Shown: positions 48,041 through 49,713 of the stretch, one piece after another
Numbering within the stretch: the first letter of the stretch is position 1
How the letters are laid out: each line of letters starts with the position of its first letter
Source of the DNA: Piscibacillus halophilus
Lineage (GTDB): Bacteria > Bacillota > Bacilli > Bacillales > Alkalibacillaceae
Direction: 5' to 3'
DNA: 64,000 bases
Assembly: GCF_900110685.1 (NCBI RefSeq)
Contig: NZ_FOES01000012.1
Span: 1 to 64,000, forward strand
Position numbers and translations under genes: made by a program
The notes under the pieces: model-generated
Seen by the model: only the letters and a program-made list of their open reading frames with translations
Database searches by the model: none
Told to the model about the DNA's origin: nothing

Positions 48041-48063
48041 GAGGGAGTGAAGCACTCCCTCTT
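48041..48063. terminator. Hairpin between ykvR and the Cys-rich peptide gene
   Basis: Arms GAGGGAGTG and CACTCCCTC with loop AAG. The T-run is better on the minus strand, so it may end the MarR/permease operon. Confidence 0.72.
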
Positions 48064-48067
48064 ATGA

Positions 48068-48190
48068 TTACTTACAACATGCCTGATCAGAGTCGCAGCA
48101 TGAAGTTTTTTGTTGTTCATCGACTATGATAGAAGAAGAACAACAGTTTTTCTTTTTATTAGGTTTAAGATTATTCAGTAGTTTTAACAT
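48068..48190 (-). CDS. 40-residue Cys-rich peptide, putative metal-binding
   Basis: A short gene with ribosome site GGAAGGTG 6 bases before the ATG (48188-48190) and stop at 48068-48070. The peptide starts MLKLLNNLKPNKKKN and contains three adjacent-cysteine pairs: CC at 16-17, 31-32 and 38-39. It is 15 bases downstream of the ArsP-type permease gene, in the same orientation. Small proteins with CC motifs often accompany permeases and regulators that handle thiophilic metals; a chaperone or sequestering role is inferred. I do not recognise a named family with certainty. Confidence 0.78.
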   Translation of the reverse strand: MLKLLNNLKPNKKKNCCSSSIIVDEQQKTSCCDSDQACCK

Positions 48191-48205
48191 ATTTTTCACC
48201 TTCCT

Positions 48206-49072
48206 TTAAATCAGATAAAATAAAGTACCTGACATGGTGGCCATGAATAATACTGAAATGATAAATGCCAAGACTAGTTTTCTTTCAAAAATAGAGTGTA
48301 ATAGCGTCACCTCAGGTAGACTCGCACCAGTTGAACTAATCATAATGGCCATCACTGGACCCAGTGCCATCCCTTTCATAATCATAATGTTAGCGATTGG
48401 GATCATGGTGGATAATCGAATGTACAATGGAATTCCGATTAAAGCAGCAATCGGAATTAACCACCACTCATTCCCTCCAAATGCATTAGTCATCCACTCT
48501 GTTGGGACAACTCCATGGATTAACGAACCTATGAAAGCGCCCAGTATTAAGTAAGGATACACCGTCTTCATTAGAGTTTTGGTTTCATTCCAAGCATTTT
48601 TGACATTAAATTTATTTGGAGGTTCAGTAGTTGACTTGACAACGAAAGGCTCGACGGCATTTTCAAAACCAAGTTTCTCCAAACTTAAGCCAATGACAAT
48701 CGATAGAATTGTTGAAACTAACGTGTAAATAATGGTTACCTTCCATCCGAGTAGGACCCCCATTAATGTCAAGATGGTTGGGTCAAGTATTGGTGAAGCG
48801 AATAAAAAAATCATGACAAATCCAAAACGCATCCTGTTTTGAAGCATGGTTGCCACAATAGGGATGGTAGAACAAGAGCAAAATGGAGTAATAAAGGCTA
48901 ATAAAACTGCAATAAGAGATCCTACAGAAGTGTTAGCATGAACGAGATGCTCTTCTAACTTCTCATAAGGAATCAACCCTTGAATCAAATGAACTACAAA
49001 CGTAACGGTAAAGAATAATGCCGTTAATTCTAGTGCAATAAATAAAAAACTTTTTAAGATATCAATCCACAT
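48206..49072 (-). CDS. UPF0718/ArsP-type permease
   Basis: A 288-residue membrane protein of the permease family COG0701 (DUF318), which includes ArsP exporters of trivalent organoarsenicals. About eight helices; the family motif TPFCSCSTIP with C65 and C67 lies in the second helical bundle, and the family FASPILDPTI segment follows. ATG 49072 is preceded by GAGGTGATG. It is flanked upstream by a palindrome shared with the marR gene and followed by the CC-peptide gene. Export of an arsenic- or antimony-like species is plausible; substrate unproven. Confidence 0.88.
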   Translation of the reverse strand: MWIDILKSFLFIALELTALFFTVTFVVHLIQGLIPYEKLEEHLVHANTSVGSLIAVLLAFITPFCSCSTIPIVATMLQNRMRFGFVMIFLFASPILDPTILTLMGVLLGWKVTIIYTLVSTILSIVIGLSLEKLGFENAVEPFVVKSTTEPPNKFNVKNAWNETKTLMKTVYPYLILGAFIGSLIHGVVPTEWMTNAFGGNEWWLIPIAALIGIPLYIRLSTMIPIANIMIMKGMALGPVMAIMISSTGASLPEVTLLHSIFERKLVLAFIISVLFMATMSGTLFYLI

Positions 49073-49090
49073 GATCATCACCTCAAAGTA

Positions 49091-49115
49091 AAATAGTTGT
49101 AAAATGCAACTATTT
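49091..49115. promoter_or_regulatory. MarR operator upstream of the permease gene
   Basis: Perfect inverted repeat AAATAGTTG-N7-CAACTATTT, 19 bases upstream of the permease start. The same core, TTGTAAAATGCAACTA, recurs upstream of marR. Confidence 0.78.
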
Positions 49116-49149
49116 AGTGTTTGAAAACCTCCTAATAATATAGAGGAGG

Positions 49150-49581
49150 TTAAACACTTCTCATCGCTTTGTTTAATAAATCAATAGAATATGTGACAGT
49201 TTGGCGCTCATCTTCATTTAGCTGACTAAAGATTTGATCTAAACTTTCATTCATATATTGGTCTATATCTTTTTCAAGTTGAGCGCCTTTTTCTGTTAAC
49301 TGAAGAATTTGAATCCGTTGATCATCAGGATGAGGAGTCTTTGTGATATAACCTTTATTAATTAATGATTTGACTTGGCGGCTAAACGTGGTGATATCAA
49401 CACCTAAAGTATTGGCTATATCACGCATGGATGGATGATGCTGACGACCAACTTCAAACAGAATATGACTTTGTTGAACACTAACATCTTGCCCACAACA
49501 CTGATCACAGCACTGTTCATTTAGTAAACCGTAGTGACGTACAACAAGTTGAAACAGGGATCTAAGATTCTCATGACTCAT
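49150..49581 (-). CDS. MarR-family regulator with N-terminal CCxxCC motif
   Basis: A 143-residue MarR winged-helix regulator: MRDIANTLGVDITTFSRQVKSLINKGYI is the recognition region, followed by a wing with TPHPDDQRIQILQLTEKG. The first helix carries NEQCCDQCCGQ (C24, C25, C28, C29), which is not part of the usual MarR fold and could bind a soft metal ion or sense oxidation. ATG 49581 follows AGAGGTGA by 6 bases; the GTG at 49590 is inside that site. It is the first gene of the permease operon and likely represses it from two palindromes. Confidence 0.9.
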   Translation of the reverse strand: MSHENLRSLFQLVVRHYGLLNEQCCDQCCGQDVSVQQSHILFEVGRQHHPSMRDIANTLGVDITTFSRQVKSLINKGYITKTPHPDDQRIQILQLTEKGAQLEKDIDQYMNESLDQIFSQLNEDERQTVTYSIDLLNKAMRSV

Positions 49582-49601
49582 AAATATCACCTCTTAATTA
49601 C

Positions 49602-49630
49602 TTTATACCCCAATTATTTGTAAAATGCAA
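49602..49630 (-). promoter_or_regulatory. Promoter of marR
   Basis: On the minus strand: -35 TTGCAT (49630-49625), 17-base spacer, -10 TATAAA (49607-49602). The -35 lies within the operator. Confidence 0.75.
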
Positions 49631-49634
49631 CTAA
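49614..49634. promoter_or_regulatory. MarR operator upstream of marR
   Basis: Near-perfect inverted repeat TTATTTG-N7-CAACTAA (one mismatch) with the same central TAAAATG as the permease operator; covers the -35 of the marR promoter. Confidence 0.75.
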
Positions 49635-49713
49635 TTTAATTATGAAACTTTAATTCAAATATATTCGTATATGAAAACACAATAAAAAAGCTATTTAAGT
49701 AAGGAGATCAAAA

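Follow-up and report, generated by a model that had tools for sequence, protein, structure and literature searches.

Three adjacent genes on the minus strand of the Piscibacillus halophilus genome encode a MarR-family regulator, an ArsP_1 permease and a short peptide with cysteine pairs. Together they probably constitute an arsenical-resistance operon, in which a thiol-sensing MarR represses an exporter of the ArsP type, the substrates of which are trivalent arsenicals, probably organic ones, and the peptide acts as a thiol carrier. Comparison between genomes shows that this group of MarR proteins, a characteristic palindrome and the gene downstream travel together, and that most of these downstream genes are arsenical genes or code for ArsP-type permeases. 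The unit lies in the window, which is the whole stretch of 64,000 nucleotides that was analysed (contig NZ_FOES01000012.1, positions 1 to 64,000), and its elements are as follows.

49602 to 49630, minus strand: putative marR promoter, with -35 TTGCAT at 49630-49625, a 17-nt spacer and -10 TATAAA at 49607-49602
49612 to 49636, no strand assigned: palindrome 1, with core TTGTAAAATGCAA, with pairing at 8 of the 9 arm bases, overlapping the putative marR -35
49150 to 49581, minus strand: MarR-family repressor with N-terminal CCDQCC (MarR_2, 1e-12; predicted MarR fold)
49116 to 49158, minus strand: hairpin across the marR stop codon, directly ahead of palindrome 2 (folding z -3.8)
49091 to 49115, no strand assigned: palindrome 2, two perfect 9-base arms, about 20 bp ahead of the permease start codon
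48206 to 49072, minus strand: ArsP_1 (PF03773) permease with TPFCSC motif (E 2.5e-48)
48068 to 48190, minus strand: 40-aa cysteine-pair peptide with three CC pairs (open reading frame list and profile of relatives)
48041 to 48061, minus strand: terminator-like hairpin at the operon end, 9 pairs, 6 of them G-C, followed by a T-rich tail

The clustered cysteines that had been reported from the letters of the window alone (hereafter the sequence-only reading) are all present: CCDQCC in the MarR, TPFCSCSTIP in the permease and three CC pairs in the peptide. Ribosome-binding sites and relatives indicate ATG 49581 as the likely start of marR (MSHENL...), ATG 49072 as that of the permease gene (MWIDIL...) and ATG 48190 as that of the peptide gene (MLKLLNNLK..., 40 aa); the listed open reading frames begin three codons earlier, at GTG. 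The marR -35 and -10 were read by eye and are absent from the list produced by a consensus promoter scan, TTGCAT having 3 of the 6 bases of the scan consensus, so the promoter is putative. The overlap of one palindrome with the marR -35 is likewise as read by eye. One terminator-like hairpin occurs in the region and 1.0 is expected from shuffles, so the argument for it is its place and not its number.

The unit is flanked by a DUF3219 gene and a DUF998 gene, and no ars gene was seen beside it among the window's open reading frames and family scans. Elsewhere in the host genome, a 2.99-Mb assembly with a single ArsP_1 match and no match to Acr3, a separate arsR-arsB-arsC set is located on another contig. 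The hairpin at the marR stop codon is variable in sequence and conserved in position, and was also observed in L009-L012, L016, L022, L023, L157 and L160; against mononucleotide shuffles, 43 of 65 related loci give a folding z below -2, and in a few of these the palindrome is part of the stretch that was folded. Placed between marR and palindrome 2, the hairpin may determine how much regulator is made relative to pump.

The permease is a PF03773 protein (165.2 bits, cut-off 32.3). Its only cysteines, C68 and C70 of the 291-aa open reading frame, fall within TPFCSCSTIP and are invariant in sets of 11 and 38 sequences, the loci having been chosen partly for TPFCSCST. According to a published survey, a C(S/T)C motif is present in all of the ArsP homologues surveyed, a tPF before the motif marks ArsP cluster 2, and ArsP genes in ars operons are already known (PMC4435449). 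The TPFCSC of the window has both the motif and the cluster-2 tPF; going by motif, the permease belongs with the ArsP homologues of cluster 2. Among curated transporter models, the SO_0444 Cu/Zn exporter and SaoE come nearest, and the permease falls far below the cut-offs of both, with 73.6 bits against 300 for NF033936 and 69.8 against 325 for NF040736, which places it outside either family; all 38 relatives scanned match both models at E <= 1e-5. Sequence comparison with solved structures gave no relative of the permease, the predicted model of which is mediocre (pLDDT 72.2).

The regulator has a winged-helix MarR domain by family match, model and fold search. Its predicted structure (pLDDT 84.9) best matches the solved structures of MarR, MepR, FabT and MexR. 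MarR-type families lead its matches and the ArsR metalloregulator model is absent from the best 25 of 32 and the best 25 of 29 families, so the protein does not group with ArsR/SmtB. The N-terminal CC pairs are in the least certain part of the model (block pLDDT 61). An N-terminal CC is common to all 46 MarR proteins linked to a permease, and CCxxCC occurs in 7 of them; a C-terminal CC is found in 45, the exception being the MarR of the window. Compared with its relative L008, the MarR of the window has a tail (49150-49165) that is shorter by five codons and is without the C-terminal CC. The cysteine site may be common to two MarR subunits, as is the case for the site shared between subunits in some other MarR proteins.

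Relatives of this MarR were sought in 397 genomes of the order, where 95 homologues were found at E <= 1e-25 in 91 genomes; one more came from a search of the family (3 of 22 genomes), and all of the resulting 96 loci were examined. A search of genome contigs with the single MarR protein found no relative, while the permease profile did find loci. Eleven of the 96 homologues (L165, L167, L171, L181, L191, L195, L204, L205 and L208-L210) are a paralogue group, with neither palindromes nor arsenical neighbours in the stretch read. The palindrome is present in 71 of the 77 loci with a C-terminal CC and in 4 of the 19 without it (Fisher 1.2e-9 over the 96 loci, a descriptive value because the MarR rows are related).

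The 16-mer TTGTAAAATGCAACTA has exactly two copies in the whole genome, both of them in this unit, which bears out the earlier observation of one palindrome core before marR and again before the permease gene. When up to 3 mismatches are allowed the window contains 4 matches against 1.6 expected, and 6 of 100 shuffles reach 4, so that it is the exact pair that counts. The core is better written as TTG[CT]AnnnT[AG]CAA than in its original form. Of the 46 permease-linked loci, 40 have this pattern upstream of marR, 44 have it ahead of the permease and 39 have it in both positions, which favours the self-regulated unit that the sequence-only reading had described. Both places are also occupied in 12 of 14 flavoprotein loci, 2 of 2 ArsI loci and 3 of 3 ArsO-like loci. 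At the ArsN1-like loci the palindrome is upstream of marR in 2 of 8 and before the acetyltransferase in 0 of 8, and the C-terminal CC is present in 2 of 8; being mostly without operator and C-terminal CC, these loci argue only weakly for one regulon.

Which genes are found under this MarR? In the hand-checked set of 96 loci, 48 have an ArsP-type permease as the first gene downstream and 14 have a flavoprotein. In the same position, 8 have an ArsN1-like acetyltransferase (with the flavoprotein following in 5 of these), 3 an ArsO-like gene, 3 ArsI (in one case at a distance of 528 bp), 2 ArsM (at 396 and 629 bp) and 1 a MATE-like transporter, named by reading of the sequence. The remaining 17 have none of these as first gene; 11 of them are the palindrome-less group and one has a permease 1 kb further on. 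ArsB, Acr3, ArsC or ArsA is the first gene in 0 of the 96. The family names rest on representatives that were scanned with models. Against a cut-off of 116, the ArsI representatives scored 167.2, 161 and 173.1 bits. Of the two ArsM, one scored 368.7 (cut-off 263), and one ArsN1-like protein of the MarR set 207.6 (cut-off 170), the representative from a permease locus being below this at 145.3. The ArsO-like protein, at 267.1, is below its cut-off of 425, and two scanned flavoproteins, at 52.4 and 62.8, are far below it and pass the threshold of no curated model. MFS transporters were ruled out as a common MarR neighbour, the proteins of about 455 aa being flavoproteins. This NAD(P)-binding flavoprotein is located under the MarR and palindrome at L016:2012-3385, L023:2022-3398 and 12 other loci; the two sequences fully read have CC pairs close to their termini. 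The flavoprotein is a candidate for a new arsenical enzyme.

The permease loci were also approached independently of the regulator, by taking the best 80 of 472 regardless of which regulator was present. Close upstream there is a MarR in 30 of these, an ArsR in 40 and neither in 10; none has both MarR and ArsR close upstream on its strand, and several have an ArsR elsewhere nearby. Within 900 bp upstream, TTGCAnnnTGCAA is present in 29 of the 30 loci with MarR and in 0 of the 40 with ArsR, and the palindrome is present in 5 of the 10 with neither regulator in range (Fisher 1.4e-15 for palindrome against regulator type, on related rows). Three of these last five have a MarR further upstream (L087, L145, L146); of the other two, L078 has no MarR in view and L143 starts near a contig end. 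Within about 2.6 kb of the same best 80 of 472 loci there are 54 with ArsR-like genes, 15 with ArsC, 14 with GNAT, 11 with ArsA, 10 with ArsB, 5 with Acr3 and 4 with ArsD, counts that stand without a background rate from other PF03773 permeases; representatives were named by models, and ArsA and Acr3 from reading of the sequence. P-type ATPases, of the Cd/Zn type by sequence reading, are near 7 of the 80. The trio is kept in Bacillaceae and neighbouring groups, often beside arsenic-resistance genes, and the lack of conservation that the sequence-only reading had said would count against it was not observed.

A tree of these 80 permeases (best 80 of 472) requires 3 changes of regulator where the minimum is 1, as counted on the 70 rows with MarR or ArsR with the others left out. 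An ArsR clade of five (support 100/99) sits inside a clade composed mostly of MarR loci (98/98), and L090, which has both a MarR and the palindrome, is placed inside the ArsR clade (95/89). At both of these exchange points the palindrome follows the regulator. With 3 changes on the tree, the regulator has probably been swapped at least twice while the cargo stayed unchanged, an exchange that rests on two events. Such exchange on one cargo suggests that both regulators respond to one type of signal.

Neither Pfam nor NCBIfam has a family that matches the peptide of the window, even at E as high as 1; the sequence-only reading had suggested that the peptide in this setting may be undescribed. 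Galaxin_repeat (Pfam) matches 2 of 11 peptide members, with a best E of 0.00046, and was taken as cysteine composition; no NCBIfam model, that of ArsD included, matches any of the 11 at E <= 0.1. A profile built from the 11 members gave 87 matches at E <= 0.001 in 86 of the 397 genomes of the order, and all 87 places were examined. Seventy-five are no more than 300 bp downstream of a PF03773-type permease, 6 are close to a permease but differently arranged (4 of them within 300 bp and the other 2 about 0.7 kb away), 1 is 1.3 kb from one, and 5, including one at a contig end, are without a permease. Whether the regulator is MarR or ArsR, the peptide gene comes after that of the permease. A search with the peptide core found it in 65 of the best 80 of 472 permease loci, to which a Tenuibacillus locus (L074) is added, the peptide of which departs from the core as does that of the window; it was not found in the other 14.

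These peptides begin with a stretch of mean net charge +2.3, followed by CC-x-[VI]-x-I-x-E-V-K. The N-terminus is weakly amphipathic, with a moment of 0.357 against 0.308 when shuffled (standard error 0.020, 61 peptides). From 1 to 5 CC pairs are present in the 65 relatives and the constant part is the first pair with its [VI]xIxEV core, so the three pairs noted earlier are there in the window but are not a constant feature of the peptide. In the wider phylum the peptide is rare, with 9 of 398 genomes having it at E <= 1e-4, two of these being from the order itself. In five of the other seven it forms the N-terminus of a protein of 227-269 aa, the fusion partner of which is DUF2703 in the two that were scanned (129.8 and 129.9 bits, cut-off 23.6); DUF2703 also matches the 'DF family (seleno)protein' model, below cut-off. 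The fusion protein is directly after the permease in L267-L269 and after a permease fragment in L272, and the L271 and L272 loci have ArsC-like, or ArsR- and Acr3-like, genes nearby. Further cysteine pairs are present at the C-terminus of the fusions in L267, L268, L269, L271 and L272. Near those of L267 and L272 there are also a small thioredoxin-like gene with CxxC and a permease-like piece of 162 aa.

The unit and its parts are also carried on plasmids. The permease as query matched 935 plasmid records at E <= 1e-20, all at less than 60% identity. An ArsR-permease-peptide trio is present on pSALNT16, a Staphylococcus aureus plasmid from retail turkey, and relatives of its peptide are on 19 plasmid records from Staphylococcus, Mammaliicoccus and Enterococcus. 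The sources of some of the 19 are turkey, chickens, swine, a poultry farm or poultry litter, while further ones were obtained from people, soil and fermented food; the plasmid permease-peptide pair may be linked with farm arsenicals. The MarR-permease-peptide arrangement is on the Priestia plasmid pBEH3. On the Paenibacillus plasmid pJ45TS6, MarR and permease are near annotated ArsN1a, trxB, two ArsR, an arsenic transporter and ArsC.

Is the unit a spare exporter of inorganic arsenite and antimonite, with a MarR that senses As(III) and Sb(III) and to which organoarsenicals are incidental? ArsR stands in the place of MarR at 40 of the best 80 of 472 permease loci, the ArsR representatives read carry a CxC site of the kind known for inorganic As(III), and ArsC, ArsB, ArsA and ArsD neighbour some of the loci. 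ArsP has moreover been proposed to pair with ArsA on arsenite (PMC6205960). Yet neither ArsB, Acr3, ArsC nor ArsA ever comes first after MarR (0 of 96), where ArsP-type permeases, ArsI, ArsN1-like genes and ArsM are found instead, and the host genome already has arsRBC elsewhere, all of which makes this explanation rather improbable. Or is it a general thiol-stress unit, its MarR a redox or electrophile sensor and its permease an exporter of Cu, Zn, Cd, Hg or an SAO-like organometal? The nearest NCBIfam models of the permease, the P-type ATPases near 7 of the best 80 of 472 loci and the sub-threshold match of the peptide-fused DUF2703 to the (seleno)protein model would fit, but the permease is far below the SO_0444 and SaoE cut-offs (73.6/300 and 69.8/325) and the genes in the MarR loci are of ArsI, ArsM and ArsN1 type; we consider it very unlikely.

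A separate doubt concerns the peptide, which could be a passenger or a metallothionein-like arsenic sink that does not work with the permease. Its CC number varies from 1 to 5, it was not found in 14 of the best 80 of 472 permease loci, and 12 of its 87 genome-wide matches are not directly downstream of a permease. Set against this are the 75 of 87 matches within 300 bp downstream of a permease, under either regulator, the fixed core CC-x-[VI]-x-I-x-E-V and the fusion to a folded domain, and a passenger or sink is on this evidence unlikely. As for the cargo, export of arsenic, antimony or another thiophilic metal had been proposed for the unit; the arsenical neighbours uphold the arsenic part, while the likely inducer is a trivalent, probably organic, arsenical and not metals generally.

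An arsenical-resistance operon of this type would work as follows. A MarR dimer would sit on TTGCAnnnTGCAA before its own gene and before that of the permease. Binding of a trivalent arsenical, most likely methylarsenite or a similar organoarsenical, to the vicinal cysteines would release MarR. The peptide would bind the arsenical in the cytosol and hand it over to the permease, its basic N-terminus perhaps holding it at the membrane, and the ArsP-type permease would export the arsenical via its membrane CSC motif. The organic preference is proposed because of the identities of the MarR-linked genes and the published ArsP work (PMC6205960).

What appears to be new is the MarR group and the peptide, the literature on the latter having been approached through its neighbour genes, and not the permease. 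No literature on a MarR regulator of arsenicals or on this MarR group was found in a search outside which most subscription papers lay, and PMC8060452, in the part consulted, concerns other MarR genes. We tentatively suggest, as a possibility somewhat short of a probable one, that these proteins are an undescribed class of organoarsenical-sensing MarR repressors in Bacilli with a common operator code, swapped with ArsR in evolution, and that the peptide represents a new kind of arsenical carrier, held at the membrane, that serves ArsP-type permeases specifically and is fused to DUF2703 in distant relatives. If true, arsenicals would have a second type of sensor fold, which could be of use in biosensors, and ArsP a possible thiol carrier.

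Several known systems resemble parts of the unit. Cysteine sensing occurs within the MarR family in OhrR and MexR, which share the MarR fold with the regulator of the window; the latter differs in its vicinal CC pairs and in the arsenical company of its downstream genes. ArsD, the arsenic metallochaperone, is like the peptide in having vicinal cysteine pairs, of which R773 ArsD has three, and in being encoded with an arsenic exporter. The peptide, however, is about 40 aa long and has no ArsD model match, and ArsD itself is near 4 of the best 80 of 472 permease loci. The SAO system likewise pairs a related permease with a small Cys-Cys protein, SaoC being Cys-Cys-ended; SaoE is related to the permease of the window, but the latter scores 69.8 against a cut-off of 325. 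The ArsR-controlled ars operons of Bacilli, including those on Staphylococcus plasmids, have the same permease and peptide under ArsR, whereas the unit of the window has a regulator of MarR fold with N-terminal and, in its relatives, usually C-terminal CC pairs, and a palindrome of its own, TTGCAnnnTGCAA. Campylobacter jejuni ArsP, a trivalent organoarsenical permease (PMC6205960), shares with the permease of the window the PF03773-type family, the C(S/T)C membrane motif and arsenical gene neighbourhoods, a likeness by family and motif and not by alignment, and the unit described here differs from it in having a MarR regulator and a Cys-pair peptide after the permease.
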